Positions 1,804 through 21,545 of a DNA stretch of 43,341 bases are shown here, piece after piece. The translations under genes were made by a program, and so were the position numbers. The notes under the pieces are model-generated. The model was not told the DNA's origin, did no database searches, and saw only the letters and a list, made by a program, of their open reading frames with translations. The DNA comes from a virus. The DNA lies in the IMG/VR virus record IMGVR_UViG_3300031231_000005, positions 1 to 43,341 of that record. One strand, 5' to 3'. Position 1 is the first letter of the stretch. Every line of letters starts with the position of its first letter.

Positions 1804-2454
1804 ATGACTGAACAATCGAAGACCGGTGACGCCTCGGCTCCTGCCGCCGCGATCACAGAGGAAGACCTGATCAAGTCCCTTCGGGAACTGGAAGGCAAGA
1901 AGGACGAGCCCGCCGCGGCGACTGCTCCGACTGAAGTCACCACCTCGACCTTGACCAAGACCGCCAAGGAAGTCGTCGCCGAACAAGGCTCGGAAGAGCT
2001 GAAGAAGGCGATCAACGTTTCCAGTGTTCTGGGTGAGGCTGTCTCGCTCATGGGCCTGCATGTCGACCAATCCTTGAAGGTGCTCGAGAAGTCCATCAAG
2101 GCCGGCGGCGAACGCGACCTCTCCTTCGCGTCCATCTTGACCTCGATGAACAAGACCATCGAGACCCTGGCCGAGAAGGTGGAAGCCTTCGGCAAGGAAC
2201 CGACAGCCTCGGCGACGCAACGTCCCGTCACAGCCAAGACTGGCGAAGTCCTGGCCAAGTCTGCGGACGGTGACAAGCCAGAACTGAAGCCGGAAGCTGT
2301 CCGCGCCCAAGTGCTAGCGGGCCTGCTGAACCTTCAGAAGACCGCACCGATGGGCTCGCAAGAGCAAGCTGGCTACGTCAACGCGACCGTCAAGTTCGAG
2401 TCGACGGGCTCTATCGACGACCTCACGCTCGCTAAGGCAATGAAGGCCGCCTGA
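1804..2454 (+). CDS. Probable capsid scaffolding protein
   Basis: 216 residues, rich in Ala, Glu, Lys and Thr, with no cysteine. The N-terminal 60 residues are acidic and low in complexity, and residues about 65-140 look helical or coiled-coil (for example QSLKVLEKSIKAGGERDL). Small, charged, helix-rich proteins between prohead protease and capsid are typically scaffolds that guide shell assembly and are then degraded. No sequence motif proves this; the call rests on composition and position. Codon use is clean (few AGA, ATA or CTA codons), like the capsid gene, suggesting high expression. It starts three bases after the protease stop. Confidence 0.6.
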   Translation: MTEQSKTGDASAPAAAITEEDLIKSLRELEGKKDEPAAATAPTEVTTSTLTKTAKEVVAEQGSEELKKAINVSSVLGEAVSLMGLHVDQSLKVLEKSIKAGGERDLSFASILTSMNKTIETLAEKVEAFGKEPTASATQRPVTAKTGEVLAKSADGDKPELKPEAVRAQVLAGLLNLQKTAPMGSQEQAGYVNATVKFESTGSIDDLTLAKAMKAA

Positions 2455-2518
2455 TAGGCATTGAGCCTAGCAGTACAGTGACAACCGAAGCCGCCGGACC
2501 TCCGGCACGGAGAAACAG

Positions 2519-3889: not shown

Positions 3890-3915
3890 GACTAACTAGG
3901 CCAGTTAAGAGTATT

Positions 3916-3941
3916 AAGGGCGGGGTAACTCCCGCCCTTTT
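3916..3941 (+). terminator. Rho-independent terminator after the capsid gene
   Basis: A perfect 9-bp stem (3916-3924 with 3931-3939, GC-rich) closes a six-base loop and runs into a short T tract (3938-3941). It lies 27 bases after the capsid stop codon and 18 bases before the next start. It would separate abundant capsid transcription from the head completion genes, allowing partial readthrough. Confidence 0.85.
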
Positions 3942-3958
3942 CTCATAGAGGAAGCGCC

Positions 3959-4471
3959 ATGAAGGTCAGACACGAGTACCTCAAGGGTGAGACAGTCACC
4001 ACAAGTATGGGATTGTTGATACTCGACGACAAGGGTTTGGTCACGAACCTGAAGAAGTTGAAGATCGACGGCCAGCAACTCATCGACACCCTCCCAGGCT
4101 TTATCAACGGAGACCTTTATGGGGACCCTATCGAGTCTTCGGAAGACCCAGAATCCCAAGCGGAAGCCGCCGAGGAAGAACCCGAAAATCCGGCCCTTGC
4201 GGAAGGGGAAGAATCCGAGCTCGTCCCTGAGATCGAGAAGGTGGATCTAGACCCGAACCAGGATGGAGTAGAAGCGGCCGACAAGGCCATCTACGAGACC
4301 ATCACACGGTTGACCGAGGCCGGAGCTACGATGAACTCCGAAGGCTACATCGCCATGCCGGAGCTGAACGAAGAGCTCAAGAAGATTGGCATGGAAGCAA
4401 TCACCGGAGCCCGACGGAAGCAAGTCACAGACAAGTTCAGAGCCCTGGAAGCGAGCCAGCAACCTGAATGA
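3959..4471 (+). CDS. Unrecognised acidic head-region protein
   Basis: 170 residues, not recognised. The N-terminal 65 residues look globular. Residues about 60-100 are very acidic (runs of Glu, Asp, Ala and Pro), probably disordered. The C-terminal 65 residues return to a charged helical pattern. It sits between the capsid terminator and the head-tail connector genes, where decoration, head-completion or small connector proteins are often found. AGAGGAAG about 3950 is its ribosome site, and it shares an ATGA overlap with the next gene (4468-4471). No function is claimed. Confidence 0.7.
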   Translation: MKVRHEYLKGETVTTSMGLLILDDKGLVTNLKKLKIDGQQLIDTLPGFINGDLYGDPIESSEDPESQAEAAEEEPENPALAEGEESELVPEIEKVDLDPNQDGVEAADKAIYETITRLTEAGATMNSEGYIAMPELNEELKKIGMEAITGARRKQVTDKFRALEASQQPE

Positions 4472-4908
4472 AGGCCAACCACCTCCCAAAAGCGGAGGAG
4501 TTGGGCGGTGATAAGCCGCTAGAAGACAAAGAGCAGGCCCTGATCAAGGCGATCAGGGCCACTCACCTCCTCACAGGTAAATTCCTAGAAGTGGTGGACA
4601 AGGACGAGGCCGTTATGCTCTCGTCCACACCCTACGTATTGAGGTGGCCTGCAAACAGTGCGCCGACGGCCTACTCCAAAGATGGCCAGACTGCCACCTT
4701 AGACTATGATTACTACCACAACACCATCTACCCAGATTTGGACACAGAGGAATACATAGTCTCTTACCAAACTGGATACTCCCCAACGAACGTACCCGCT
4801 GTGGTGAAAGAACTCATACGCCTCCTGGGCAATTGGTTCCTGCTTAAGGAAGACGATCTGCGAGGGGAAATCCTGGCAGTAGCCGAAGCAGTGAAGAGGG
4901 TGAGATGA
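4468..4908 (+). CDS. Probable head-tail connector (adaptor-like) protein
   Basis: 146 residues. The pattern of an early helix ALIKAIRATHLLTGK, a middle beta region, then YQTGYSPTNVPAVVKELIRL near residues 100-122 resembles the gp6-like connector family, in which helices pack against the portal and a Y-x-T/S-G strand precedes the last helices. These proteins form a ring below the portal. It begins within the stop of the previous gene (ATGA) and overlaps the next by four bases, so the connector genes are likely translated together. The family call is by pattern only. Confidence 0.6.
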   Translation: MKANHLPKAEELGGDKPLEDKEQALIKAIRATHLLTGKFLEVVDKDEAVMLSSTPYVLRWPANSAPTAYSKDGQTATLDYDYYHNTIYPDLDTEEYIVSYQTGYSPTNVPAVVKELIRLLGNWFLLKEDDLRGEILAVAEAVKRVR

Positions 4909-5549
4909 CCAAGCTAGTCGAAAGAGCCCTCGTCAAAGACCTGCTGCAGATTGCTAGAGCTGACACCTTCGAGGATGCTCGCATCGACAGCATGATAGAA
5001 CTCCTCACAGAGGACGTGGAACACTACTGCAGACGTAAATTCACCAAGGCCGATCGGGTGGAATACTACCGTAGTTACGACCAAATGTTTAACGATCCTG
5101 ACCCTCAGTACGTCTGGTTGGACGGGCCCGTCGACACGGGAAGCCCCTTTGGAATCGTTTGGTCGCCGAACATGAGACACGCCACGGCAGGAGTCACACT
5201 GCAACCAGAAGACTATACCTTGGACGCAGAACAGGGACTTCTGATGATCTCAGGAGCATCGGGACTGGCGCAATCTCTTATCCCCATCGGATTTGGGGGG
5301 AGGCTGTACGGATATGCAGCACAGGGCTTTCAAGTCGCCTACACAGGCGGATATGCGGTTACGATCAACCCAGGAATTGACCCAGCCGATCCCATGGACG
5401 ACTTCGGAGTTACCCAAGTCCCTTCAGGCTTGAAGTACGTCCTAGCCTCCAAGATCTCAGAGGACTTCCAAGATAGAAAGAAACTTCTGCCTTTCACGGA
5501 CGACCAGAAATTACGCCTGAACCCATATAGGAAGAAGGACATCCTCTAA
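4905..5549 (+). CDS. Probable gp6-like head-tail connector protein
   Basis: 214 residues. The N-terminus (VKDLLQIARADTFEDARIDS, then helices ending in VEHYCRRKF near residue 43) matches the helical opening typical of HK97 gp6/SPP1 gp15-like connectors. A long beta-rich middle follows (residues 55-150), then VAYTGGYAV near 145-153 and a final helical segment with VPSGLKYVLASKISEDFQD. It is larger than most family members because of the middle region. This is the second connector-like gene in a row, so the two may form stacked or mixed rings. Confidence 0.68.
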   Translation: MTKLVERALVKDLLQIARADTFEDARIDSMIELLTEDVEHYCRRKFTKADRVEYYRSYDQMFNDPDPQYVWLDGPVDTGSPFGIVWSPNMRHATAGVTLQPEDYTLDAEQGLLMISGASGLAQSLIPIGFGGRLYGYAAQGFQVAYTGGYAVTINPGIDPADPMDDFGVTQVPSGLKYVLASKISEDFQDRKKLLPFTDDQKLRLNPYRKKDIL

Positions 5550-6088
5550 TGAGCTTGGTAGTCGAAACGGGCTCAGGTTCCGCCACAGCCAACTCATATA
5601 ACGACGCAGCCGGCGTTACTGTTCTGTTGGTGGGGACGCCGTACGCAGCGACTTGGGAAGCATTAGAAGATAAAGACAGCGCGGCTATAGCCGCCACTAT
5701 CTTCATGGACATCAAATTTAGGTACTACGGCCAGACCCTGTTTACCATACAAGCCTTACAATGGCCAAGGACCAAGAACTTGGACGGTCAGGGTAATCCG
5801 ATAGCTCCGGGGACCATGCCGCTGGAACTATTGAAAGCTCACGCCCTGGTGTCAGGAATGATGAGCCAAGACCCGGACCTATTTGGGGAATCCTTCGAAG
5901 GCCAGATCCCACTGAAGCAATTCACCTCAGACACCCTGTCTCTTCAATTCGGGGACCCCACCAAAGGCTCCATAGAGCAGGTGCTGGGAGCTCGTTTTAC
6001 CGGCGTGGAACTCCTGATAAGGCCGATAGGAACGAGGAAAGACGGCGAGTTCCTGGACACCTCCAAGCAATCTATAGTGCGGAGATAG
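5549..6088 (+). CDS. DnaT-like domain structural protein, probable head-tail adaptor
   Basis: 179 residues. The start (MSLVVETGSGSATANSY, then a helix and YAATWEALEDKDSAAI) and the ALQWPR motif near residues 70-75 match a family commonly annotated in phages as a putative DnaT-like ssDNA-binding protein. In phage genomes these genes sit in the neck region, so a structural adaptor role is more likely than replication. The gene starts at the last base of the previous stop and ends three bases before the next start. Confidence 0.65.
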   Translation: MSLVVETGSGSATANSYNDAAGVTVLLVGTPYAATWEALEDKDSAAIAATIFMDIKFRYYGQTLFTIQALQWPRTKNLDGQGNPIAPGTMPLELLKAHALVSGMMSQDPDLFGESFEGQIPLKQFTSDTLSLQFGDPTKGSIEQVLGARFTGVELLIRPIGTRKDGEFLDTSKQSIVRR

Positions 6089-6091
6089 TTC

Positions 6092-6463
6092 ATGAGCCTG
6101 CGCTACGCGATCAAAGCTGGTTTGAGAACCGCCTTTAGGGCGGTGGGAAACTCGAAAGAGATCATCAGCTACATGGTAAGGGGACCATCCGCCTATGACG
6201 AAGATACCATGGGCATCGGATATCCCCTACTGGTACAATACAACCAGATCCCCACCATACCTGTGGCCTTCTCGTCCGAAGAGATCGACGGGGACACAAT
6301 CCGACCCAAAGACACCAAGCTGCTTATCCAATCCTTCCGACTGCCCAAAAGACCAGAACAGAACGACGCCGTTATCCGACCCGATGGAACCACATGGGAA
6401 GTGATGGGCCTGGTGTCTGATCTAACTGACGCTGGATACCTGGTACACATCCGCGGAACCTAG
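6092..6463 (+). CDS. Probable head closure (stopper) protein
   Basis: 123 residues, mostly beta strand by pattern (PLLVQYNQIPTIPVAF, TKLLIQSFRLPKRP, TTWEVMGLVSDL). Its size, its place after the connectors and before a gp10-like neck protein, and its beta-barrel-like pattern agree with head-closure proteins of the HK97 gp7/SPP1 gp16 type, which plug the portal after DNA packaging. No diagnostic motif was seen, so this rests mainly on gene order. Confidence 0.55.
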   Translation: MSLRYAIKAGLRTAFRAVGNSKEIISYMVRGPSAYDEDTMGIGYPLLVQYNQIPTIPVAFSSEEIDGDTIRPKDTKLLIQSFRLPKRPEQNDAVIRPDGTTWEVMGLVSDLTDAGYLVHIRGT

Positions 6464-6473
6464 TAAGCTACCC

Positions 6474-6505
6474 CCTCGATGCGCAGGTAATGCGACACAT
6501 CGAGG
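6474..6505 (+). promoter_or_regulatory. Hairpin that buries the ribosome site of the following TTG-start gene
   Basis: An 8-bp perfect stem (6474-6481 with 6498-6505) is extended by three more pairs (6482-6484 with 6492-6494) across a three-base bulge. The 3' arm contains the GAGG (6502-6505) that serves as Shine-Dalgarno for TTG 6515. When folded, this would hide the ribosome site, and translation of the upstream gene ending at 6463 would not by itself open it. Function inferred. Confidence 0.55.
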
Positions 6506-6514
6506 CACTAAGAC

Positions 6515-6955
6515 TTGGGCGCTTTCAAAGACAGCCTTAAGAAGTTCAAGCTGAAGACGGAAACACGAATAAACCGTGTGACCACCAGCATCGTTGTGAA
6601 AGTCAGCGAATCTTTGGTGGATCTGTCGCCCGTAGGTGATCCGTCTTACTGGCAACACCCAGCGCCTCCAGGCTATAAGCCGGGTCATTTCAAGGCCAAT
6701 TGGCAGTACGGGTTCAACCACATACCGACCTCTGAAATAGCGGGTGTGGACCCGGACGGAGCTCAGACTAAAGCATACATAAAATCAGCTCTGCCAGCCG
6801 TTATGAATGGCACTCACTATTTGGCCAACAAAGTCCCCTACGCACTCCGAATAGAATACGGATGGAGTAGACAAGCCCCACAGGGTGTTGTGGCCCTGAC
6901 ATTGCTCAAGTTGGACAGGATAGTGAGGCAATCGGTGGCGGAAGCCCAAAAATGA
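6515..6955 (+). CDS. HK97 gp10-like neck / tail completion protein
   Basis: 146 residues. The motif VDLSPVGDPSYWQHPAPPGY followed by KPGHFKANWQ (residues about 31-66) and the later HYLANKVPYALRIEYGWS (about 101-118) are hallmarks of the gp10-like/minor tail family, in which SPVDTG..KANW and a Y-A..iE.G segment recur. These proteins join the head connector to the tail terminator. TTG 6515 follows GAGG by nine bases, and that site lies in a hairpin. No earlier in-frame ATG exists. It overlaps the next gene by four bases. Confidence 0.75.
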   Translation: MGAFKDSLKKFKLKTETRINRVTTSIVVKVSESLVDLSPVGDPSYWQHPAPPGYKPGHFKANWQYGFNHIPTSEIAGVDPDGAQTKAYIKSALPAVMNGTHYLANKVPYALRIEYGWSRQAPQGVVALTLLKLDRIVRQSVAEAQK

Positions 6956-7356
6956 GTCTAGACTACATCAGAAAAGCGCTGGTGAACAGACTCTTAACCA
7001 TGGATTCAGTTCCGTTTCCGACGCAACAAGAGAACGATAACCAACCCTCGGACCCGGGTCAGCCATACCAAATGGTGAACCTTATGCCGGGTGAACCAGA
7101 CAACCCGACGATGGGAGACGACTTCTATCGTGAACTGGGGTACTTGCAAATTACCCTAGTCTATCCGCTAGGAACGGGACCTGGCCTCGCTCTGGCGAGA
7201 GCTGTGTTGATACGATCAACCTTCTACCGAGGTCTTACACTGACTTCGGGTCCAGTGAGACTTCAAGTGGATAGAACGCCCGAAATAGCCCCAGCGTTTC
7301 GCGACGCGGACAGGTACAGATTGCCGGTTCGTATTCGCTACTTCGCCAACATCTGA
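6952..7356 (+). CDS. Tail terminator-like protein (DUF4128-like)
   Basis: 134 residues. Helix MSLDYIRKALVNRLLTM, then a VPFPTQQENDNQPSD segment, YLQITLVYPLGTGPG (about 64-78) and a closing RYRLPVRIRYF strand follow the usual layout of phage tail terminator/minor tail proteins of the DUF4128 type. These form the ring that stops tail tube growth and docks to the neck. Position directly before the tail tube gene agrees. ATGA overlap with the upstream gene. Confidence 0.7.
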   Translation: MSLDYIRKALVNRLLTMDSVPFPTQQENDNQPSDPGQPYQMVNLMPGEPDNPTMGDDFYRELGYLQITLVYPLGTGPGLALARAVLIRSTFYRGLTLTSGPVRLQVDRTPEIAPAFRDADRYRLPVRIRYFANI

Positions 7357-7368
7357 CCGGAGACAGTC

Positions 7369-8604
7369 ATGACACAAATTGCAACGGGCGTCTTCAAGAA
7401 GCTCTCCTTCAAGAAGCAAACGGCCCAAGGTACGATCGCTCCAGGTGGTGCTACTACGGAACAAACCATGCGCAGGGTCACGAGCACGATTGACCTCAAG
7501 AAGGCTCAGTACCGCTCGAACGAGATCAACGCCTCACAACAACGTCGTGACTCTCGTCATGGCGTGAAGAGCGTAGCCGGGACCATCTCGGGCGAACTCT
7601 CGAACGGCACCTACCAGGCCTTCTTTGAGAGCGTCCTGCGCCAACTAGTGCAGACGCAAGCGACCACAGGCGCGATTACCACTGTGACTGCCGCCCTCAC
7701 AGCCACACCGGCAGGCACCTTCACCCGCTCCGGTGGGAGCTATCTGACTGACGGCTTCAAGATCGGGGATCTGGTCAGTTGGACCGGTTGGGCCACCACG
7801 GGTGTGCCAAACAACTCCCACAATATGGTCATTACAGCCCTGACGGCGACCGTGATGACTTGCTACCCCCTCGACGCGGTGCCGATTGGTGCCAAGGCTT
7901 CTGGCGATAGCGTGACCTGCATCGTTCCGGGCAAGAAAACCTGGATGCCGCAGAGTGGTCACACACGTGACTACTACACGATCGAACACAACTTTTCGGA
8001 CATCGTGCAATCGGAACAGTTCATGGACTGCGTGATCAGCGCAGCGAACGTGAAACTGCCGCCAACCGGTATGGCGACCATCGACTTCCCCGTCATGGGG
8101 TTGAACATGCAGACCGGGACGACAGCCTACTTTACGTCTCCAACCGCGACCTCGACCGGTTCCATCATGGCTGCGGTGAACGGTGGCCTGTTCGTGAACG
8201 GCACGAAGTTCGCCACTATCACCGGCATCGAAATCAACATAAACGGCAACTACACCGCTCCAGGTGGGGTGGTCGGCACCAACATCGACCCGGACATCTT
8301 CCCGGGTGTGATGGACGTCTCTGGGACAGTCACAGCTCTATTCGACTCTGTGACCTTACGGGATGCGTTCATCAACGAGACCCAATCGACCATCATCGCG
8401 GCCCTGACGGCGGACAACACCCCCGGCTCGAACGCGATCGTCTTCGTGATGTCGAACGTGAAGTTCGGCGGCGCGGACAAAGACGACGGCGAGAAGGGTT
8501 TGACGCTCTCTATGCCATTCATCGCCTCGGAGAACGTGAATGGCGGTGTGGCGGCAGCCAACCTGCAGACCACCATCTCCATCCAAGACACGACCTTCGC
8601 TTAA
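7369..8604 (+). CDS. Major tail tube protein
   Basis: 411 residues. The opening ATGVFKKLSFKKQTAQGTIA, the TMRRVTSTIDLKKAQYRSNE segment and GVKSVAGTISGELSNGTYQ (about 65-83) are typical of phage tail tube proteins. So are the beta-rich body and the late GLTLSMPFIA and LQTTISIQDTTFA strands. Subunits stack as rings around the DNA channel. At 411 residues it is on the long side; the segment near residues 110-185 may be an extra domain. Codon use is strongly biased, like the capsid gene. A perfect hairpin follows the stop. Confidence 0.82.
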   Translation: MTQIATGVFKKLSFKKQTAQGTIAPGGATTEQTMRRVTSTIDLKKAQYRSNEINASQQRRDSRHGVKSVAGTISGELSNGTYQAFFESVLRQLVQTQATTGAITTVTAALTATPAGTFTRSGGSYLTDGFKIGDLVSWTGWATTGVPNNSHNMVITALTATVMTCYPLDAVPIGAKASGDSVTCIVPGKKTWMPQSGHTRDYYTIEHNFSDIVQSEQFMDCVISAANVKLPPTGMATIDFPVMGLNMQTGTTAYFTSPTATSTGSIMAAVNGGLFVNGTKFATITGIEININGNYTAPGGVVGTNIDPDIFPGVMDVSGTVTALFDSVTLRDAFINETQSTIIAALTADNTPGSNAIVFVMSNVKFGGADKDDGEKGLTLSMPFIASENVNGGVAAANLQTTISIQDTTFA

Positions 8605-9466: not shown

Positions 9467-12400
9467 TTGTCCGGCTCGATCGACCTTTCAACGCTCGTCG
9501 TATCGGTCAAGAACGACGGTGTGGCCGAAAGCACCAAAGGTCTCCAGCAACTGGAGGACCAGGGCGGCAAGACCGAATCCGCCATGTTGAGCCTGTCGAA
9601 GGTGACAAGTGTCCTGGAAGGTGGCATGAAGTTACTGGGCCTGAGTGTGGCCGGGATAAAGCTAGGAGAGTTGATCAAAGACAGCGCCATGCTGGCTGCC
9701 CGTTACGAGACCTTGGGCGTTGTCATGATGGTAGTGGGCAACAACGCAGGCTACACCAAGTCCCAACTGGACATCTTCCAGAAGAAGCTCCAAGAGTCCG
9801 GCATCTCGATGAAGCAATCGAGAGACGCCCTCATACAACTGTCCTCGGCCCACATTGACCTGAGCAACGCCCAAAAACTAGGTAGGGTGGCCCAAGACGC
9901 GGCTGTGATCGGACAGGTCAACTCCTCAGAGGCGATGAACCGGATCATCTACGGCATCAAATCCCAACAGGTGGAAGTGCTGCGGGCGATGGGGATCAAC
10001 GTCTCCTTCGAGGACAGCTACAAGAGGTTAGCTACCACCCTACACACGACCACCGACAAGCTGACGGAGACTCAGAAGGCGGCGGCTCGGACTAACGCTG
10101 TCCTGGACGCGGGCAAGATCATCGCGGGCACCTACGAAGAGGCCATGGGAACGGCCGGTAAGCAAATAACCTCCCTGCAAAGGTACTGGGAGGATTTGAA
10201 AGTCAAGCTGGGAGACAACTTCCTGCCGGCCTTGACTGATGCTGTGTTCGCTTTCGCGGATGCGCTTAAGCAGGCCCAAGATATACTGGCTGAAATCTCC
10301 AGAAGCGAAGTGGCACAATTCCTTGGAGTTGTGCTGATGGGAGCCTTTAAAGCAGTAGAAGTCTCAGTGACTGCCGTAATATACGTGGTGGGGCAACTAA
10401 TAAGATTACTTGGAGCAGCCATTGCAGATGCTGCAGCTCTATCCAAAGGGATACTGACGGGGGACTTCTCCCACATAAGCGAAATCAACAAATCCTTTGT
10501 GAAGGATTACGACGCCGCCTCCGCCTCAGCTAGCAACCTCATGAGCAAGCAACTGGGACTAACCAAAGCTCAGAAGTCTGGCACAGAGCAAACGGAAGCT
10601 CAACGCATAGCCGCAGGTAAGCTACAACGTCAACAAGAAGAGGCTCAAGAAGCCCAACTGAAGATTCAAGCTGACGCTGACAAAGCGGCTAAGAAAGCTG
10701 CTCAGGAAGCTGCCGCCCAAGCGAAGAGAGACGCTGCGAAAGCCGCATCTCGAGCAAAAGACATAGCAACAATGCAGGCGGAATCCACCGCAGCATTCGA
10801 ACTAGCCAACGCTTACCTACAGAGCGGCGAGGCTGCTTTTAAAGCGGCCGCCGCAGGCCAAGCCTTGGCCGATGTGACCAAGAACGGTGGTTCTATAACA
10901 GAAGCTACCTCGAGATTCCTGAGGAAAGAAGCTGCCGCCAAAGCCTTAGACGGAGCGAAAGACTACGACACTCTGAATGCCCAAGCAGAGGCCCAAACTA
11001 AATACAACGACATGGTGGCTGCGGGAACTCTGACCCTTGCGCAAGCCAACGAAGCCATGGCGAAGGAAAGTCAACTCAGGACTTTCAACATGGCTCTGGC
11101 AGGAGTACAAGGCGAGGCCTATGCGGCCCTGAAGGCCGTCATCGACAAGTTGACTGGAGCGATAGACGCCAAGAACGAAGCGGACAAAGAACAGCAACTA
11201 TTGGCACAGGCAGTAGACCAACAAAACCAACTGGACATGCTGGCCAAGGAAGCCGAACTGATCGGTGTTGGCAACGCCCAAAGAGAAATAGAGTTAGCCC
11301 AACTGCAGGCTAGACAAGAGCTTGTGTCTAAGGGGCAAAACCCAAACTCGACTAGCGGCCAAAACGCCATACAAGGCGCTGGTAAGGTGGCTGCTGCGCA
11401 ATCCGACAAGACGGCGGACAACGACAACTACAACAAGAGCCTGAACAGAACCCTTACCATCCTGCAACAGATAGATGCCCGCACTAAGACAACAGGTAGC
11501 AACCTAGCAGACTCCTTTGGGAAGTTCGGAACGGCAATCTCTGGTGCGGCCACGTCTCTGACAGGTTATGCGGCTAAGCAAGAAGAGATCAACCGCAACC
11601 TGGAAGATCAAAAGAAAGCCGCAGCTGTAACAAACCAAGCGTCTGCCGAACAACAAGCTAGATCGGCAGCGACTATAGCAGCGGCGGAAACAGACGCGGC
11701 CACTCAATCTAAAGAAGCCCAATTGGACATGTACGGGAGCGTACTGACAGCGTCCAAGAGCTTCTTCAGCGAGAAGAGCACCGCATTCAAGGTACTACAG
11801 ACAGCAGAGCAAGCCTACCGCCTCTTCGAATTTGCCATGAGCATCCGCTCAATCGCCGTGAAGGCGACAGAGACTGCAGCTCACGTAGCGTTGAACGGCA
11901 CTAAAGCGGCTTCGGGTGTGGCGGCAGGCGCTGCCGAGATATTCGCCGCCCTAGGCCCATTCGGCTTCCCAGTGGTAGCCGCCATGATCGGTGTGATGGC
12001 TGCCCTAGGTTTTAAGGGAGGCGGCGGAAGCGGCGGCGGGCTGGGTTACAACGTTGAAGACGTACAGAAGAAGCAAGGCACTGGCTCAGTTCTCGGAGAC
12101 AGTGCGGCTAAATCAGACAGTATCGCGAAGTCACTGGAGCTGCTGACTCAAAACACCAATAAGGATCTGGAATACTCCAGCGGGATGCTGAAGTCGCTGA
12201 GGTCGATCGACACCAGCATATCGGCAGTGGCCGCGGCCCTCTCCAAAGCTTTGGGGGCTGGAGGCGCACTGAACACAGACAACCTAGGTCTGGGGACGTC
12301 AGGAAATCCAGCGACCCTGAAGAATCTGGGCTTTGGATCCACCACGACTAAAGCTCTGGCGGACCAAGGGTTGAACTTCAACCAACAATCCATCCAAGAC

Positions 12401-14260
12401 ATCCTGCAGAACGGAGTCAACGGCACCAGCTACCAATCGGTTACCTCCCAAACCAAGAAGAAAGCCCTTGGGATAACCTACTCCAATAAGACGAGCACCA
12501 ACACGTCTAACACAGGTTTGGACGATGAACTGTCGAACCAGATCTCACTACTGATCGGTTCCATGAAGGACGGCATAGTTTCGGCGGCTGGCGACCTGGG
12601 AATCACAGGTGCTGAGCAAGTGCTGGACTCCTTCCAAGTAGCCCTTGGGAAGGTTAGCCTGAAAGACATGACCGGCACGGAGATACAAGATACACTGAAC
12701 GCGATCTTCTCCAAGCTGGGAGACGATATGTCCGAAGCGGCAGTCGCGGGACTCGGCCAGTTCCAGAAGGTCGGCGAGGGTCTATTCCAAACCCTCATCC
12801 GCGTCGCCAAGGATTACAAGACGGTAGACGTCACCTTGCAGTCGATAGGGAAGACCTTCGGAGCAGTGGGCATATCGTCGATAGCCGCTAGAGAGAACCT
12901 CGTAGATCTGGCGGGAGGTCTGGACGAATTCACCAGCGCAGCGTCAGCCTACTCAGATGCCTTCCTGACGGTAGACGAACAAACTCTGCCTATAGTTCAC
13001 AACGTCTCCCAAGAAATGAGCCGTCTGGGTCTGACGAGCATCAAGACTAAAGACCAATTTAAGGCCTTGGTTAACAGCATAGACGTCTCGACGGCAGCCG
13101 GAGCTGACCTTTATACCTCACTTATGGCAGTGGCTCCGGCCTTCGCTAAAGCGGCCGATTATATCGATTCTGTCACCAACGCGGTGAACGACAACAAGAG
13201 CATGACGGATAAGATCTCCGACGCGAGGTCTGCCCTCACAGACGCTTACAAGAACGAAAGCGACGCCCTAGACGATACAATCAGCAGATTCCAAGACTTC
13301 ACAAAATCCCTGCTGGCCTTTAGGGATTCCCTGTCGACAGGACCAGCCGCTCAACTGTCTCCGGAAGATCAGTACAACGCGGCAAAAGCCCTGTTCTTGG
13401 ACACAAGCGCCAAGGCTTCCGAAGGGAATGAAGATGCCCTCGGCAAGATCCAAGAAGTCAGCCAAGCCTATCTGGATGCCTCCAAGGACTACTATGCAAC
13501 GAGCCAAGGCTACTTCGATGACTTGGGTCAGGTCAAGGTAGCCATTGACGCCGCGGCAGCAGCCTCGACCAACCAAGTCAGTGTAACCACCCAGCAACTG
13601 GACGTGCTGAAGCAGCAGGTCTCTGGTCTGATCACCATCAACCAAAGCGTGCTGACGGTGGCGCAAGCCGTGGCCCAATTGGGTGGCTATATCACCCAAC
13701 AGACGGCTGCTATCCAGGCAGCCCAAGCAATCGTGGCGGCCACCCAAACACCAGCCGAAGCGGCGGCACCCGCTCCGACTGCACCCCCAGCGGAACAACA
13801 CGCTCCAAACTTCTCCACTTACGTGGACCACTACGCCGACTTGGCCTCGCTGTACGCCTCAGGAACAGGCATGGCGAAGGGTCGCACGAAGGAAGAGTTC
13901 GGAGCCTACCACTGGAGCCGATACGGCCAATACGAAGGCCGAGTCCCGTACGCGATGGGCGGTGCTTTTACGAATGGGGTGGTGACAAAGCCGACCAGTT
14001 TCCACAACTCACAGATGGGAGAGAGCGGTCCAGAAGCCATTATGCCTCTGACTAACGTGAACGGCAAGCTGGGTGTGGCAGCCAACACAAACAACTCTAA
14101 CAGCAAGGAAATGATAGACAAGCTGGAAGAGCTAATCGAGCTGGGCAGACAAGCTGAAGTTCAAAGAGCCGCGATGGCGAAAGAGGCCGGACAAAAGAGT
14201 GATGGCCTGAAGTCGGACATCAACAAGATCTCCAAGACCATTAGGGCGACTGCTGCATGA
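9467..14260 (+). CDS. Tape measure protein
   Basis: 1597 residues, by far the longest gene. It is mostly helical and rich in Ala, Gln and Lys, with two hydrophobic stretches (about residues 285-325 and 820-850) that could insert in the host membrane at DNA entry. A Gly-rich hinge lies near 853-862. The C-terminus has a YVDHYADL...SRYGQYEGR repeat-like motif (about 1453-1490) and the GGAFTNGVVTKPTSF...GESGPEAIMPL segment (about 1497-1530), both common at tape measure ends. Its length sets tail length. TTG 9467 directly follows the chaperone stop, with AAGGGGA about seven bases upstream. No lysozyme-like motif was recognised. Confidence 0.9.
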   Translation: MSGSIDLSTLVVSVKNDGVAESTKGLQQLEDQGGKTESAMLSLSKVTSVLEGGMKLLGLSVAGIKLGELIKDSAMLAARYETLGVVMMVVGNNAGYTKSQLDIFQKKLQESGISMKQSRDALIQLSSAHIDLSNAQKLGRVAQDAAVIGQVNSSEAMNRIIYGIKSQQVEVLRAMGINVSFEDSYKRLATTLHTTTDKLTETQKAAARTNAVLDAGKIIAGTYEEAMGTAGKQITSLQRYWEDLKVKLGDNFLPALTDAVFAFADALKQAQDILAEISRSEVAQFLGVVLMGAFKAVEVSVTAVIYVVGQLIRLLGAAIADAAALSKGILTGDFSHISEINKSFVKDYDAASASASNLMSKQLGLTKAQKSGTEQTEAQRIAAGKLQRQQEEAQEAQLKIQADADKAAKKAAQEAAAQAKRDAAKAASRAKDIATMQAESTAAFELANAYLQSGEAAFKAAAAGQALADVTKNGGSITEATSRFLRKEAAAKALDGAKDYDTLNAQAEAQTKYNDMVAAGTLTLAQANEAMAKESQLRTFNMALAGVQGEAYAALKAVIDKLTGAIDAKNEADKEQQLLAQAVDQQNQLDMLAKEAELIGVGNAQREIELAQLQARQELVSKGQNPNSTSGQNAIQGAGKVAAAQSDKTADNDNYNKSLNRTLTILQQIDARTKTTGSNLADSFGKFGTAISGAATSLTGYAAKQEEINRNLEDQKKAAAVTNQASAEQQARSAATIAAAETDAATQSKEAQLDMYGSVLTASKSFFSEKSTAFKVLQTAEQAYRLFEFAMSIRSIAVKATETAAHVALNGTKAASGVAAGAAEIFAALGPFGFPVVAAMIGVMAALGFKGGGGSGGGLGYNVEDVQKKQGTGSVLGDSAAKSDSIAKSLELLTQNTNKDLEYSSGMLKSLRSIDTSISAVAAALSKALGAGGALNTDNLGLGTSGNPATLKNLGFGSTTTKALADQGLNFNQQSIQDILQNGVNGTSYQSVTSQTKKKALGITYSNKTSTNTSNTGLDDELSNQISLLIGSMKDGIVSAAGDLGITGAEQVLDSFQVALGKVSLKDMTGTEIQDTLNAIFSKLGDDMSEAAVAGLGQFQKVGEGLFQTLIRVAKDYKTVDVTLQSIGKTFGAVGISSIAARENLVDLAGGLDEFTSAASAYSDAFLTVDEQTLPIVHNVSQEMSRLGLTSIKTKDQFKALVNSIDVSTAAGADLYTSLMAVAPAFAKAADYIDSVTNAVNDNKSMTDKISDARSALTDAYKNESDALDDTISRFQDFTKSLLAFRDSLSTGPAAQLSPEDQYNAAKALFLDTSAKASEGNEDALGKIQEVSQAYLDASKDYYATSQGYFDDLGQVKVAIDAAAAASTNQVSVTTQQLDVLKQQVSGLITINQSVLTVAQAVAQLGGYITQQTAAIQAAQAIVAATQTPAEAAAPAPTAPPAEQHAPNFSTYVDHYADLASLYASGTGMAKGRTKEEFGAYHWSRYGQYEGRVPYAMGGAFTNGVVTKPTSFHNSQMGESGPEAIMPLTNVNGKLGVAANTNNSNSKEMIDKLEELIELGRQAEVQRAAMAKEAGQKSDGLKSDINKISKTIRATAA

Positions 14261-15102
14261 TTTTAGTGGAGCTCACAGCCGCAATCGACGCGCTGGGCAC
14301 CCTGAAGAACTTCTACGTGTCCGACGACAACTTTGTGACTGAGTTGGCTGACACCCCAAGACACACGGCCTTTATTGCAGGCCTGGAAGACCCGGGGACC
14401 CTAGGAATAGCGGCTTTCTCAGACGGTAGAACTGCGGGTGGGACTAAGCTAGAGACAGGCTCTATAATCCTGAAGAATGCAGACGGCACCTTCGACAGTT
14501 GGGTGAATTACTCCTTCGAAGGTAGACCCGTAACCATTAGAACTTCAACCCCGAAATCAGTAAGATACCCAGCAGACTTTCCAGTGATCTTAGTAGGCAC
14601 AGTCAGCGGGATAGAACTGTCCTGGCAGTCTCTAACGATACTTCTAAGAGACCAACAGTTCATTTTCACTAGAGCAGTACAGTTGACCAGGTACCTAGGC
14701 TCCAACATAGGTCCAGTGGGACTGGAAGGATTGCCTGGAGACCTGCAAGGAAAGACTAAACCACGACTATACGGAAGAGTTCTGAACGTACCGGCACCCT
14801 GCGTCAACACCTCTAAGTTGACCTACCAAGTCAACGATGGTCCAGTGGCTGACATCGACGCTGTGTTCGATAGAGCAGCTCCCCTCACAAAAGGGAGCGA
14901 CTACGCGACCAGCGCGTTATTGACAGCAGCCACGGTCTCACCAGCCACTTACGCCACCTGCTTCGCAGAAGGCTACTTTCGACTGGGTTCCGCTCCGGCG
15001 GGACAGATTACTGCGAACGTGAAGGAAGGGGCAACCCCAGCCGATAGAACCGCGGGTCAAATCTTGAAGAAGCTGGCGACCGCCGCAGGTCTAACCGTTT
15101 AA
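14257..15102 (+). CDS. Tail hub-like protein, N-terminal half of a split gene
   Basis: 281 residues. It reads as the front of a distal tail/hub protein common in proteobacterial phages and prophages: FEGRPVTIR, VLVGTVSGIELSW, TRYLGSNIGPVGLEG, LYGRVLNVPAPCVNT, LTYQVNDGPVADIDAVFDRA, YFRLGSAPAGQITANV, then a helix TAGQILKKLATAAGLTV. In that family the helix normally runs on into a segment ending QPA..GI..., but here a TAA stops it. The missing remainder lies at 16351-17034, fused behind a SPRY-like module. The gene overlaps the tape measure stop by four bases (ATGA). The two halves probably assemble together. Confidence 0.75.
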   Translation: MILVELTAAIDALGTLKNFYVSDDNFVTELADTPRHTAFIAGLEDPGTLGIAAFSDGRTAGGTKLETGSIILKNADGTFDSWVNYSFEGRPVTIRTSTPKSVRYPADFPVILVGTVSGIELSWQSLTILLRDQQFIFTRAVQLTRYLGSNIGPVGLEGLPGDLQGKTKPRLYGRVLNVPAPCVNTSKLTYQVNDGPVADIDAVFDRAAPLTKGSDYATSALLTAATVSPATYATCFAEGYFRLGSAPAGQITANVKEGATPADRTAGQILKKLATAAGLTV

Positions 15103-16350
15103 GAGGATCACATGCCGTCAGCCACCCCAGTCCTCTACCATACGTTCATAGACGAAATGTCGAAGGGAGGGCACAACCTACAGACAGCAGTCTTTAAGGT
15201 CGCCCTTACTAACACTGCTCCAACCCAAGCAACGGACACTGTCTGGAACACAACGGTCGCCCCCGCACCGGCCTCAGCGAACGGCTACACTTCGGGTGGT
15301 AACACCATAACGACCACGACCGCCGCTACCACCGCCTCAGTGTTTAAGCTGGTGTTGGCCGACACCACCTTCACAGCAACTTCCGGTGGGATAGGACCGT
15401 TCAGATACCCGATCCTTTACAACAGCTCCGCCTCCAACAAGTCGGTAGCCTACCTGGACTATGGAACCTCCTTGACGCTGGCGAGTACCGAGTCCTTGGC
15501 AGTGGACTTCGATGGTTCGCTGGGCGTCTTTACTATGTCATAGGACAGGTGAATGACTACCACCTGGAACCCCTCAGACGCCGACGTAGCCTGCGCCCTT
15601 TCTAACGCAAACTTGACAGCCACCTGTACTGGAGGCGGCAGCGGGTTCCGCGGTGTGAGAGCGACCATCTCAATCACAGGCCTGAAATACTGGGAAATAA
15701 CTCACGACCTAGTGAACGGTGGAGACACCCAAGTAGGGGTGGCGAACGGTACCGCGGGTATCTTCGACTTCGGCGGTGGGGTTGACAACGACTCCATATC
15801 ATACAATGCAGGAGGTACGGTAAACCTGAATGGCTCCTCACTGGGGAGCATCGGTAGCTACACAACCGGCGACGTAACGGGAATCGCCTACGACTCTGTC
15901 AACAGCAAGATCTGGTTCAGGAAGAACGGTGGTAATTGGGACAACAATGGGACCCATAATCCGGCTACTAATACGGGTGGCTACAGTATCTCGGCCATCA
16001 CCGGAGCCGACTTCCCTTACGTCAACGTAAACACCAACGGTTCAGCCTCTACCGTAAACTTCGGGGCAACGGCCTTTGTGACAGCCCCACCAAGTGGCTT
16101 CACAGGAATAGACGGCTCCTCGACATACACGCTGACTGTAGGAACGAAAGCTCTAAGCTTCAACGAGCAGACGGTTAACTTCGTCCGTCACCTAGTACTG
16201 TCGGTAGTCAAGAAACAGCTGAACTTCAACGAGCAGCCGGTAACGCTAACCTATGGAATGCCAGGGGCTCACACCCTGACGGTACTTCCAACTAGCTTAG
16301 GATTCTCGACTCAACCCGTTCAACTAACTCCTCACCTGCTGACTACTACT
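15100..16350 (+). other. In-frame 1251-base insertion that splits the hub gene
   Basis: Hub homology stops at Val 281 (15097-15099) and resumes at a Val codon (16351-16353), continuing TQRDILFMDLAQPAEMGI. The interval is exactly 417 codons, so both halves are in the same frame. The insert holds TAA 15100, a complete 143-residue tail protein gene, TAG 15541 and TGA 15550, and the SPRY-like front of the next gene. Removing it would restore a hub of about 508 residues. No terminal repeats or transposase are visible. Confidence 0.7.
15112..15543 (+). CDS. Small tail-associated protein of the GPFRY type
   Basis: 143 residues. LYHTFIDEMSKGGHNLQTAV, FKVALTNTAPTQATDTVW, NGYTSGG and GGIGPFRYPILYN (about 96-108), then AYLDYGTSLTLASTESLAVDF, match a small beta-rich protein often found among phage tail genes. 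Its role is not known to me; it is probably a virion component near the tail tip. It lies wholly within the insertion that splits the hub gene, in the same frame as both hub halves. GAGG (15103-15106) gives a good ribosome site five bases before ATG 15112, directly after the hub stop. Confidence 0.68.
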   Translation: MPSATPVLYHTFIDEMSKGGHNLQTAVFKVALTNTAPTQATDTVWNTTVAPAPASANGYTSGGNTITTTTAATTASVFKLVLADTTFTATSGGIGPFRYPILYNSSASNKSVAYLDYGTSLTLASTESLAVDFDGSLGVFTMS

Positions 16351-17034
16351 GTGACCCAGCGGGACATCCTGTTTATGGACCTAGCCCAACCAGCAGAGAT
16401 GGGCATATGGATAGATGACGACCAGACCTTTCAAGCTGCCATGGACGCAGTGGCTGGAAGCGTCGGGGCGTACTACTCGTTCGACTATAGTGGTCTATTG
16501 AGGTTGGGCATATTAAATGCTCCTGTTGCCATAGACTCAATTCTGACAATACGAGACTACGATTTGGTGGACATTCCGGAGCGGGTGCCTCCAAAGGACA
16601 ACGGAGTTCCAGCCTTTAACGTAACGGTCAACTACGCCAAGATTTGGACGATACAAGATTCAGACCTAGCGTCGGTAGTTACGCCAGCTGCAAGAATGCA
16701 ATTGGCCCAAGAATACCGTTCAGTGAAAGCTGAAGATCTGACGGTCAAGAACCAGTGGCTGATGGCCTTGGAAATCGACCAAGACACGCTTATGGCGGAT
16801 ATAGTCGCCGCAACCACGGAAGCCAACCGCCTACTCAGCTTATACAAGGTCCGCCGCGATATCTTCAACATATCAGTTCCCATGGATCTGCTGACCGACA
16901 ACCAGCTTAGAATCGGAAGCACCGTGAGAATGGTCCTGAACCGCTTCAACATGTCCGCAGGCAAGTACTTCCTTATAATAGGAACGAGAATAGAGCTCGA
17001 AACTCGCCAAGCCGGCCTGACGCTCTGGGGGTAA
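15553..17034 (+). CDS. SPRY-like module fused to the C-terminal half of the tail hub protein
   Basis: 493 residues in three parts. Residues 1-187 look like a SPRY/concanavalin-type beta sandwich: KYWEITHDLVNGGDTQVGVA, SISYNAGGTVNLNG, VNSKIWFRKNGGNWDNNGTH. Residues about 191-265 hold three related strand units (TLTVGTKALSFNEQTVNF, LVLSVVKKQLNFNEQPVTL, TLTVLPTSLGFSTQPVQL). From Val 267 the sequence is the missing back half of the hub family: DLAQPAEMGIWIDDDQTFQ, AVAGSVGAYYSFDYSG, then the strand-rich end. SPRY-like folds bind proteins or sugars, so the front may be a host-contact or virion-contact module. ATG 15553 follows a tandem TAG and TGA. Confidence 0.75.
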   Translation: MTTTWNPSDADVACALSNANLTATCTGGGSGFRGVRATISITGLKYWEITHDLVNGGDTQVGVANGTAGIFDFGGGVDNDSISYNAGGTVNLNGSSLGSIGSYTTGDVTGIAYDSVNSKIWFRKNGGNWDNNGTHNPATNTGGYSISAITGADFPYVNVNTNGSASTVNFGATAFVTAPPSGFTGIDGSSTYTLTVGTKALSFNEQTVNFVRHLVLSVVKKQLNFNEQPVTLTYGMPGAHTLTVLPTSLGFSTQPVQLTPHLLTTTVTQRDILFMDLAQPAEMGIWIDDDQTFQAAMDAVAGSVGAYYSFDYSGLLRLGILNAPVAIDSILTIRDYDLVDIPERVPPKDNGVPAFNVTVNYAKIWTIQDSDLASVVTPAARMQLAQEYRSVKAEDLTVKNQWLMALEIDQDTLMADIVAATTEANRLLSLYKVRRDIFNISVPMDLLTDNQLRIGSTVRMVLNRFNMSAGKYFLIIGTRIELETRQAGLTLWG

Positions 17035-17035
17035 A

Positions 17036-17893
17036 ATGGCGAACGCAATCATCGGTTACGCTAATTGCGTGGATGCGGCGACGATAGACGGAGGCTCGTG
17101 GGAAACCTCATTGCCCATTCGCAACCTACAGACGAGGAAGCTAGGACAAGTCGCGAGATCCACCTCGCTGAGCCTTTCCTCGACGCAATTTCGAGTGGAC
17201 GCTGGCCAAGACGCACTAATTAGAGTGATAGGTTTGGTGGGCCACTCACTGTCCGTGGATGCGCAATTCCGTGTTTACAGCAGCGACATCACGGACTTCT
17301 CCAACATTCTGAGCGACAGCGGTTGGACCGACGTATTCCCAGCCGTTTATTCAAGCGACGACCTGGAGTGGGAAGCTCCGAACTGGTTCACCGGAAGGTA
17401 CACACCAGCGGAACTGGAAGGCTTCACAAAGAACCTGATCTACGCTCTGCCTGCACCCACTCAGGTCCGTTACTGGAAGTTCGAATTCGACGACAGATCC
17501 AACGCGGCTCAATTTATCGACATCGGGCGGTTGTTTATGGGCCCAGGTTGGCAACCAAAAACTAACATAGCTTATGGCGCTAGCATAGCCTGGGAGACCT
17601 CGACGGACACCCAGAAGGCGCTATCAGGGGCTCGCTATTTCGACCGGCGTAACCCATATAGAGTGGCTAAATTCACCACCGATTGGATGACCGAAAGCGA
17701 AGGGAACGCCAATGCCTTCGAGATACAAAGACGTTCGGGTCTAGACGGTGAAGTCCTGTTCGTGTTCGACCCAGACGATACAGTTCATAGAATTAGACGA
17801 CAGTTCCTGGGTCACTTGAGGCAGCTGTCACCCGTGGAATACCCCACAGTAAACTCAACCAAAACCGGCTGGGAAATAGAGGAACTCATATAA
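17036..17893 (+). CDS. Distal tail protein, family unnamed
   Basis: 285 residues, beta-rich. MANAIIGYANCVDAATIDGG, SLPIRNLQTRKLGQVARS, then IRVIGLVGHSLS and VRYWKFEFDDRSN (about 142-154) suggest a jelly-roll or discoidin-like fold, followed by QFIDIGRLFMGPGWQP. The C-terminal part has FEIQRRSGLDGEVLFVFDP. I recognise this as a protein that regularly accompanies the hub family in phage tail clusters, but not its precise function; a baseplate or tail-tip component is most likely. It starts one base after the hub stop and overlaps the next gene by one base. Confidence 0.65.
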   Translation: MANAIIGYANCVDAATIDGGSWETSLPIRNLQTRKLGQVARSTSLSLSSTQFRVDAGQDALIRVIGLVGHSLSVDAQFRVYSSDITDFSNILSDSGWTDVFPAVYSSDDLEWEAPNWFTGRYTPAELEGFTKNLIYALPAPTQVRYWKFEFDDRSNAAQFIDIGRLFMGPGWQPKTNIAYGASIAWETSTDTQKALSGARYFDRRNPYRVAKFTTDWMTESEGNANAFEIQRRSGLDGEVLFVFDPDDTVHRIRRQFLGHLRQLSPVEYPTVNSTKTGWEIEELI

Positions 17894-18849
17894 TGGTGAA
17901 CTCTGTCACCTTCCTCTCCTCAGTGGGTGGAGACGGCTCTACCGTCACAGACGACAGCAACCCGACGACGGGACTAGGGAACGGTGGTCACCGCATCAGG
18001 CTAGTGCCGTCATTCTCCAATATAGTCAACATTGCCCAAAATGTGGTGAACAACGCGCTGTCTGCCGCGGCTTCGGCAGCAACGGCCCTGAATGCACCAG
18101 GAACTTCAGCTACTAGCACCACGTCGAACGACATAACCGGTGCGGTGGGTACAGATAAGACCTTTACGATACAAACGGGCAAGTCCCTTGTTCCCGGTAT
18201 GGCCGTTATTATGGCCAGGACCTCGGCACCCGCAACCCAAGCTCTAGTGGGCGTAGTCAAGACCTACAACTCCGGTACCGGCTCTATAGTGATCAGCGTG
18301 GGTTCCATAACAGGAACCGGCACGAGCATAACCGACTGGACTTTGAGTCTCACCGCCACTGTGGCAGGGAGTGTGGGAACCTCACGCACAATCTCAGCCG
18401 CAGGACTGGCGACAGGCGGTGGTACGCTCGCAGCAGACAGAACCATTACAGTTACAGCTGCAACGGGCGCTCAAAACGCGGCAGGATCATTAAGCAACGT
18501 AGCACTTACCCCGGCATCCTACGCAGCCTCACTCTCCCCGCAAACCTTGACGGACGGAGCTACCGTCAACTGGGACATGGGCCAATCGCTTGTGGCCAAG
18601 TTGACGCTAGCAGGGAACCGCACACTGGCCAAACCTACCAATTATAGGGTGGGAGAGACCTGGCAGCTATGGGTCGTACAAGACGGCACCGGCGGTAGGA
18701 CCCTAGCCTTTAACACTTGCTATAAGTGGGGAGCTAAAGGTACCCAATCGTTGTCCTCAGCCGCAGGCACATTGGATTTAATCAGTGTGACCTGCCTGGA
18801 TGCGGACGGAACCAACCCAATCTTTAGACTATCAATCGACAAGGGCTAA
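17893..18849 (+). CDS. Tail fibre-like structural protein
   Basis: 318 residues, very rich in Thr, Ala, Ser and Gly, of low complexity and beta-prone. The segment TNPTTGLGNGG is followed by NVVNNALSAAASAATALNAP, a short helical Ala/Ser stretch as found in trimeric fibre stalks. The repetitive beta region (about 80-200) includes GTSRTISAAGLATGGGTLAA, a motif family seen in phage tail fibres. The end, LVAKLTLAGNRTLAKP...GETWQLWVVQDGTGGRTLAF (about 236-276), is a head-like domain also common in fibres. A trimeric fibre or tip spike is likely. Receptor specificity cannot be read. Confidence 0.65.
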   Translation: MVNSVTFLSSVGGDGSTVTDDSNPTTGLGNGGHRIRLVPSFSNIVNIAQNVVNNALSAAASAATALNAPGTSATSTTSNDITGAVGTDKTFTIQTGKSLVPGMAVIMARTSAPATQALVGVVKTYNSGTGSIVISVGSITGTGTSITDWTLSLTATVAGSVGTSRTISAAGLATGGGTLAADRTITVTAATGAQNAAGSLSNVALTPASYAASLSPQTLTDGATVNWDMGQSLVAKLTLAGNRTLAKPTNYRVGETWQLWVVQDGTGGRTLAFNTCYKWGAKGTQSLSSAAGTLDLISVTCLDADGTNPIFRLSIDKG

Positions 18850-18850
18850 C

Positions 18851-19813
18851 ATGGCCAATAGGTCCCTCCTTACGACAAGAACACCCGTCCCGCGCCGCTT
18901 TGCTATCAGCCCCAGCTGGTTAGGGAAAACGGTGTGGGATCTGGATGTCGATGGCGTCTTGAGCATACCCATTGCTGGTCAATACACAATAACACCAGTA
19001 GCTACATTTACCGCACTAGTGAAGATGTGGGGAGGCGGAGGAAGCCCAGCTTACCTGGACGCTCACTACAGCGGTGGCGCGGGAGGTTACGCGCAGGGCA
19101 TAATCACCTTTACCGTCTCGACCCCATACGGGATAATCATAGGCGGGGTTGGTGACTACGCTGCCTACGGTAACGCCAATCCATATGGGGCAGGTGGCAG
19201 CACAGTCTCATATCCGACAGTGTCTTACCCAGGGGGCGCGGGTGGAGGATACTCGCAAATCTACATCTTCGGATCAGGCCCACCTGCAAATCCAGCTATA
19301 TTGCTGGCTGGAGGCGGAGGAGGTGCTGGCTGGGGCGCTTTGGGAGGTGCTGGCGGTGGAGCCATAGGCCTAGCAGGAACTACCTATGGCACCGCCGAAG
19401 GCGGGCAACCAGGAACCCAGGTGGGTCCAGGTAGAGGCGGAAACGGCGCTACTCCAGGTAACGGGGGATCCCCAGCACATGGAGCGGGCGGTGCGGGAGC
19501 AAGCGCGTCATTAGTGGCAACTGTGTCAAGTGGAGGCGGAGGCGGCGGATGGTTCGGCGGCGGTTCCGGCGGCATCGGAACTAACGATGTTTACGGAGGT
19601 TCGGCAGGCGGCGGCGGCGGTTCTGGCTACTTCGACCCAGCCTATGTGCAGTCGCCGTACTTAGAAGCAGGCTATGCCCCTACAACATGGCCGACCTTTA
19701 AGGGGAAGCCAGGAAACTTCGCCGACGTAATGAGAGGAAGCTCTGGTCAACCCGCGGGTTACGACAACGATGTTTACGCCCAAGCTGACGCTGGTCGAGT
19801 GATCTTGATCTAA
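18851..19813 (+). CDS. Glycine-rich tail tip protein, probable adhesin
   Basis: 320 residues from ATG 18851; a longer reading from 18800 overlaps the previous gene and is unlikely. After a short N-terminal region (residues 1-50), the body is dominated by glycine-rich motifs such as KMWGGGGSPAYL, SGGAGGYAQGIITF, LAGGGGGAGWGALGGAGGG, SSGGGGGGWFGGGSGGIG and SAGGGGGSGYF. This matches the Gly_rich family of phage and cell-surface proteins, where polyglycine-II helices can display receptor-binding loops. At the end of the tail cluster it is the best candidate for receptor binding in this window. The runs of Gly codons also make it a likely site of length change and recombination. Confidence 0.7.
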   Translation: MANRSLLTTRTPVPRRFAISPSWLGKTVWDLDVDGVLSIPIAGQYTITPVATFTALVKMWGGGGSPAYLDAHYSGGAGGYAQGIITFTVSTPYGIIIGGVGDYAAYGNANPYGAGGSTVSYPTVSYPGGAGGGYSQIYIFGSGPPANPAILLAGGGGGAGWGALGGAGGGAIGLAGTTYGTAEGGQPGTQVGPGRGGNGATPGNGGSPAHGAGGAGASASLVATVSSGGGGGGWFGGGSGGIGTNDVYGGSAGGGGGSGYFDPAYVQSPYLEAGYAPTTWPTFKGKPGNFADVMRGSSGQPAGYDNDVYAQADAGRVILI

Positions 19814-20920: not shown

Positions 20921-21334
20921 ATGATCTACAAGCTCCTCTTCAAGGGCTTGAGTTTCTTCGCCGTCGGGGCGGCCGTTTACATACTTTACCTGCAAACCAC
21001 AGCATACTTGAAAGAGCACCAACGCTTAAAGACAGCGGAAGCAACGCTCACCCAAGAGCTGGATCGCAAGCAGTCAGAGTTAGACGACCTCAACAGAACA
21101 AATAAAATTAGAGAGGACCAGCAAACTCATGCGCGAAGCATCGGAGATGCCGCCGCCACTGCTCAAGTTGAGCGAGCCAGAGCCTACGCAGACGTCAGGC
21201 GACTCATTCTTCAAGCATCACCGTCTGAAGACGGGCCTGCTGCTCCTGTCCTGCGCAACACTATTGACCGGCTGTACGCACCCGATCAAACCAAAGTTGG
21301 AAATACGGACAGACTTTCTGATCCCGCAGGTTGA
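20921..21334 (+). CDS. Rz-like inner membrane spanin
   Basis: 137 residues. One N-terminal transmembrane segment (LLFKGLSFFAVGAAVYILYL, residues 4-23) is followed by a long charged helical or coiled-coil region (about 25-100). That is the standard form of an i-spanin: anchored in the inner membrane with its body in the periplasm. A lipoprotein gene overlaps its 3' half in another frame, as expected for Rz/Rz1 pairs. The two subunits bridge the envelope and disrupt the outer membrane at the end of lysis, so the host should be Gram-negative. Confidence 0.78.
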   Translation: MIYKLLFKGLSFFAVGAAVYILYLQTTAYLKEHQRLKTAEATLTQELDRKQSELDDLNRTNKIREDQQTHARSIGDAAATAQVERARAYADVRRLILQASPSEDGPAAPVLRNTIDRLYAPDQTKVGNTDRLSDPAG

Positions 21335-21545
21335 CCCCAGGATAGAGACCTGCCCACCCTGGCCAGAAAAGCCAAGCGACACATCAAAGCAGAGCGCCGC
21401 CGCAGGTCTCCTCAACGACGGCAAAGAGGCTTACGACACCTGTAACGCAAACCTCAACGCAGTCGTACAGACCTTGAAAGACGCCATCAGCCAGCTGATG
21501 GAAATCAAGGACGAGCTGACCAAAACACCTGACTCCACCCACTAA
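21129..21545 (+). CDS. Rz1-like outer membrane spanin lipoprotein
   Basis: 138 residues as read from ATG 21129. A signal peptide with lipobox LTGC (Cys about residue 49) follows the charged HHRLK and the hydrophobic LLLLSCATLL stretch. The 30 residues before the signal are unusually long, so the true start may lie further in; ATG 21147 or a non-ATG start are alternatives. The first 206 bases overlap the Rz-like gene in a different frame. The mature part is short, Pro-containing and without other motifs, as usual for o-spanins. Confidence 0.72.
   Translation: MREASEMPPPLLKLSEPEPTQTSGDSFFKHHRLKTGLLLLSCATLLTGCTHPIKPKLEIRTDFLIPQVDPRIETCPPWPEKPSDTSKQSAAAGLLNDGKEAYDTCNANLNAVVQTLKDAISQLMEIKDELTKTPDSTH

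Follow-up and report, generated by a model that had tools for sequence, protein, structure and literature searches.

A tail hub gene split by an inserted two-gene cassette in a virus of bacteria

Introduction

A core component of the siphophage tail is the hub, by which the tail tube is closed and opened. In T5 and most other siphophages it consists of one chain, and in lambda and the gene transfer agent of two or more.

Lambda and the gene transfer agent provide established examples of hubs with two and three chains (PMC10721106, PMC13243795). Lambda and RcGTA have two-chain hubs with other genes lying between those of the two chains (PMC10721106), and lambda gpJ carries extra N-terminal domains that point down from the hub (PMC10721106, PMC13243795). 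Among phage enzymes, chains that were split by insertion do reassemble (PMC2988022).

Here we analyze a virus of bacteria represented by positions 1 to 43,341 of the IMG/VR virus record IMGVR_UViG_3300031231_000005, a stretch of 43,341 nucleotides that we call the window. As in the lambda and gene transfer agent type, its hub is encoded as two chains by neighboring genes. A preliminary description, made from the sequence alone, had interpreted these genes as one tail hub gene divided by an exactly in-frame cassette, and had offered either a split hub that reassembles or a means of adding a host-contact module to the tail tip.

Results

The front and the back of one protein

The features of the locus are listed in Table 1; the coordinates proposed beforehand for the three ORFs and for the insert of 417 codons all hold. 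The front of the hub (hubN) and the back (hubC) gave two adjacent matches to the phrog_8917 profile, at positions 104-362 (E 8e-53) and 377-609 (E 2e-31) of 613, which together span most of the profile. In BLASTP comparisons with intact relatives (designated by L numbers), hubN aligned over residues 1-279, and hubC aligned from residues 262-283 to the end, with 47% identity to L002 and 35-47% identity to five relatives. The joined halves measure 508 aa, exactly as the intact hub of L001, with which they align over the full length, the junction being crossed without loss; the nearest relatives among viral contigs have one hub chain of about 508 aa. When the window was read through, with stops treated as residues, and aligned with 23 intact hubs, a single clean gap was observed, at the insert. 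GLTV are the last residues of the front and VTQRD the first of the back, and the relatives read GLPAGEINAADL and similar at this junction, so that nothing conserved was lost at the break. The split is thus confirmed: hubN and hubC are the two halves of one conserved protein, as first described. A single intact homolog does align with both halves once they are joined, and no relatives naturally ending at the GLTV helix were found. The 43 kb window contained no second copy of the hub.

Table 1. Positions of the split hub gene, its insert and the adjoining genes in the window.
Feature	Position	Strand	Basis and remarks
Tape measure protein	9467..14260	+	phrog_7740, E 3.5e-51; directly upstream of the hub
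hubN, front of the hub	14257..15102	+	281 aa; TAA at 15100; phrog_8917 match; 57% identity to L001
GLTV, last four codons before the break	15088..15099	+	Alignment and AF2 secondary structure of the L001 hub
Insert	15100..16350	+	1251 nt comprising TAA, orf143, SPRY and repeats; gap against 23 intact hubs
orf143, complete small structural-module gene	15112..15543	+	phrog_644; TAG at 15541
SPRY-hubC ORF	15553-17034	+	493 aa; in-frame TGA at 15550 just before the ATG
SPRY module, N-terminus of the back chain	15553..16122	+	Residues 1-190; Pfam SPRY at 46-171
Three imperfect strand repeats of 21-27 residues, linker from SPRY to hubC	16126..16335	+	Read from the translation; YTLTVGTKALSFNEQTVNF / LVLSVVKKQLNFNEQPVTL / TLTVLPTSLGFSTQPVQL
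hubC, back of the hub	16351..17034	+	Codons 267-493 of the 493 aa ORF; 227 aa
Conserved gene directly downstream of the hub	17036..17893	+	phrog_8610; same position in L001, L003, L005 and L006

hubN starts within the last bases of the tape measure gene (overlap ATGA), and the order of tape measure then hub is the same in L001-L006, as in most relatives. Further downstream, two ORFs that overlap in different frames (20921-21545), the second with a lipoprotein-like LLTGC, look like an Rz/Rz1 lysis pair, and a glycine-rich protein (18800-19813; Pfam ALK_LTK_GRD, E 7.5e-15) adjoins a probable tail fiber gene.

Both halves look functional. They keep 40 of the 43 near-invariant positions, and the root-to-tip distance of the window hub (1.14, the mean being 1.19) indicates that they evolve at a normal rate.

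Composition of the insert

Judging from its sequence, the cassette is one whole gene followed by the front of a second gene, the latter fused in frame to the back half of the hub. The whole gene, orf143, matches phrog_644 over residues 7-136 (E 2e-12), that is, over most of the protein, and is preceded by AAGAGG, which resembles a ribosome-binding sequence. Its relatives were found in 31 viral contigs, some of them 60-76% identical. Genes of phrog_644 are present in many unrelated phages, often adjoining portal or tail genes, and in EBPR siphovirus 2 the orf143 homolog, gp76, has the tape measure gene on one side and an intact hub gene on the other.

The second ORF begins with a module that scored 27.8 bits against SPRY (PF00622), above the Pfam cut-off of 26.3, and that also matched phrog_10080 (E 2e-16). 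It has the MTTTWNPSD-type beginning of stand-alone SPRY genes in unrelated phages, so that its start is a true gene start. SPRY stretches occur elsewhere in the tail fiber protein of phage AH2 and in a tail-module gene of MMDA13, beside tail genes. The proposal that a SPRY module had been fused to the back half is borne out, and the module is of a kind carried in phage tail fibers. Only phrog_644, phrog_10080 and SPRY were matched in the insert by PHROG and Pfam profiles, and no endonuclease gene was found there; its two edges share no direct repeats of 6 nt or more. Entry of the insert is most simply explained by non-homologous recombination.

All three ORFs start in one frame, and between them lie the stops TAA at 15100, TAG at 15541 and TGA at 15550. 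This shared frame and the length of 417 codons had been described correctly. As evidence, however, the exact frame agreement carries little weight, because only the fusion of SPRY to hubC must be in frame, and agreement of the other two ORFs would arise by chance in 1 case out of 9. The shared frame needs no special mechanism, and we rejected the idea that it implies read-through.

Hubs of the relatives

The family was surveyed with patterns for the front half, the back half and the whole hub, plus 754 genomes of two classes; hubC used as a single-sequence query gave no relatives, whereas an alignment-based search did. Both halves were encoded by one ORF in 132 distinct relatives (about 95% clustering), the exceptions being contig ends, frame breaks, L201 and degraded partial copies. 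No hub split by inserted genes was present among the relatives read, and the window is the only case, known from one genome. The division by insertion that had been proposed is thus real in this lineage and found in it only. The trees of the front half and of the back half placed the window in the same broad group, at weak resolution.

Several other candidates were rejected as further splits. In L177, L298 and L295 the frame is broken but the site holds no inserted gene, and the copies in L297 and L299 are partial and degraded. In L201 (4001-8297), the front of the hub (1-185) is joined abruptly to the 3' portion of an apparent downstream fiber gene, owing to a deletion or to chimeric assembly. 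In L295, which belongs to the class of genomes surveyed around the Tardiphaga MAG (alphaproteobacterial), a phrog_644-like gene and then SPRY lie upstream of the hub in the same order as in the window, with SPRY sharing an ORF with the hub front. The region 2244-7550 of this genome has SPRY, Ala-rich repeats and the hub front in one ORF, and the frame changes in a glycine-rich stretch before the back half of the hub, owing either to a sequence error or to a natural change.

In-frame insertions of about 150-270 residues were observed at profile positions 254-289 in L296/L289, L278, L279, L294, L300 and L288/L301, so that insertion near the break of the window is recurrent. L199 has a 93-residue insertion at profile 212-222, and L236 a propeller-like stretch at profile 393. 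A Kelch beta-propeller (PF24681, E 4e-28) lies in frame within the back half of the L239 hub (3878-6400; also in L108 and L109); here a tail hub has clearly incorporated a propeller of the binding type. By eye only, and with no Pfam match, the insert of L296 resembles a laminin G type lectin and that of L300/L301 a jelly-roll carbohydrate-binding module. What is new in the window is the splitting of the chain, insertion near the break being already recurrent in the family.

Fold of the hub and site of the break

The fold comparison was made on L001, an intact relative with 51% identity to the window hub. Its AF2 model (pLDDT 90.9, pTM 0.88) had T5 pb3 as its best Foldseek match over its length (E 6e-19, TM 0.68), followed by DT57C, Mu gp44, the GTA megatron and lambda gpJ. 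The T5 pb3-like fold of this intact relative justifies the name hub, in agreement with the identity first assigned, and the gene lies where a hub gene is expected, just downstream of the tape measure gene. Searching the PDB by sequence with the hub alignment gave no match, and hhalign produced no alignment of the hub profile with the single sequences of lambda gpJ and gpL; the comparison with lambda thus rests on the fold and on the literature.

The read-through model of the window reached about 93 pLDDT in both halves, the cassette itself being of low confidence. It matched T5 pb3 across both halves (TMt 0.42, compared with 0.50 for the intact hub) and also matched the two GTA chains, hub and megatron. 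This fold indicates consistency and is not proof of reassembly, because its alignment contains intact hubs and the result is partly built in.

In the L001 model, the break corresponds to the loop between helices 265-275 and 285-294. A sub-threshold Pfam match of L104 to a Gp44-like second domain (E 0.049) spans the break, so that the chain is probably divided within hub domain II and not between domains.

Discussion

We consider it likely that the window encodes a functional two-chain hub that reassembles non-covalently and gives the tail tip a SPRY module. The two options offered by the preliminary description, the reassembling split hub and the host-contact module, are best merged into one. 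An ancestral single-chain hub gene would have been interrupted by a two-gene cassette, consisting of a phrog_644 gene and a SPRY-repeat gene, which supplied its own start and stop codons and whose SPRY-repeat module became fused in frame to hubC. The chains hubN and SPRY-hubC, made from adjacent genes, would come together non-covalently, by analogy with lambda gpL/gpJ and the GTA hub/megatron, to form the usual trimeric hub, placed at the tail tip under the distal tail ring. Three SPRY modules on beta-repeat linkers would then project sideways from the tail tip, where they could contact the host surface; such a position at the side of the tail tip would follow from a break in a surface loop, probably of the second hub domain. 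We infer the reassembly, the stoichiometry and the role of SPRY as a host-contact module. For the full scenario, in which a two-chain hub arose in a single-chain family by insertion of structural genes into a domain loop, is functional and mounts a host-contact module, we think that the balance tips slightly in favor.

The split hub could also work with SPRY serving only as a spacer or an assembly aid. Binding targets are not readable from sequence, and phrog_10080 and phrog_644 have no known function, but the annotated tail genes with SPRY stretches in AH2 and MMDA13, together with the other beta-rich binding-type domains inserted in sister hubs, make this unlikely. More radically, the insertion may have broken the hub, the contig then deriving from a defective phage or a prophage remnant. 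We regard this as quite improbable since both halves are open over every conserved block, with clean starts and stops, near-invariant residues are kept as in intact hubs with no increase in rate, and the tape measure gene is also open, as is the conserved gene downstream; nevertheless, the split is known from one genome only, and the frame breaks of L177, L298 and L295 and the partial copies of L297 and L299 testify that broken hubs occur in the family.

An assembly artifact joining fragments of different phages deserves attention in a metagenomic viral contig, all the more as the related contig L201 has an abrupt hub-to-fiber junction and as an exact search of viral_contigs with the front junction returned no match. 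Such a join would nonetheless have had to lose no residue between the halves and to create an in-frame fusion with an insert whose codon usage matches that of the neighboring genes, while the gene pair of the insert recurs in the same order beside the hub of an unrelated genome (L295); this explanation is very improbable. The three ORFs in one frame and an insert whose length is a multiple of three might finally suggest that the hub is still produced at full length, the insert being an intron, an intein, a bypassed sequence or a stretch whose stops are read through. An intein is excluded by the stops inside the insert, read-through would need to pass all three of them, and a search of positions 14000-17300 for introns, with E values as high as 1 allowed, matched no Rfam family; moreover, both inserted ORFs have their own starts and ribosome-binding-like sequences. 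Continued production of a full-length hub is thus the least credible of these explanations.

The functional two-chain hub would have broader implications. The split has been caught within a single-chain family, and the donor gene pair is identifiable elsewhere; if our reading is true, the locus gives a momentary view of the way in which multi-chain hubs of the lambda kind originate, and it reveals how the hub itself can serve to mount an entire host-contact module on the tail tip. The locus further points to loops of the hub in which insertions are tolerated, a matter of relevance to changes of host contact by phages.

The known systems share different aspects of this organization. With lambda gpL, gpI and gpJ, the window shares a hub made from more than one chain, encoded by neighboring genes with others between them (PMC10721106, PMC11101478), and a back chain that bears extra N-terminal domains. 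The lambda break, however, follows hub domain I and falls within the insertion of domain II, whereas that of the window is later, between helices, at residue 281; gpL has a 4Fe-4S domain, whereas hubN has only two cysteines instead of four; and the inserted genes are unrelated. The hub and megatron of RcGTA and R4C also form a two-chain hub (PMC10721106, PMC10276861), but with a different break point and in a whole GTA lineage, whereas the window has no 4Fe-4S ligands and represents one genome. The best reading is that the resemblance to lambda gpL/gpJ and to the GTA hub/megatron arose independently. T5 pb3 (PMC10038345) gives the best match to the fold of the intact relative over its whole length, and the window-family gene adjoins the tape measure gene; pb3 is one chain and has no SPRY (PMC10038345).

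In Aeh1 nrdA and the T4 topoisomerase (PMC2988022), an essential gene was likewise cut by an insertion, and there the chains reassemble; in those cases an endonuclease gene was inserted and no new domain is fused to the halves, whereas the window carries structural genes and no endonuclease. Finally, the hubs of L239, L236, L296, L300 and L301 have, like the window hub, a beta-rich binding-type module added to a hub loop, although they remain one ORF. The split in the window is real and unusual and most likely functional, a variant of the known multi-chain, decorated hubs.
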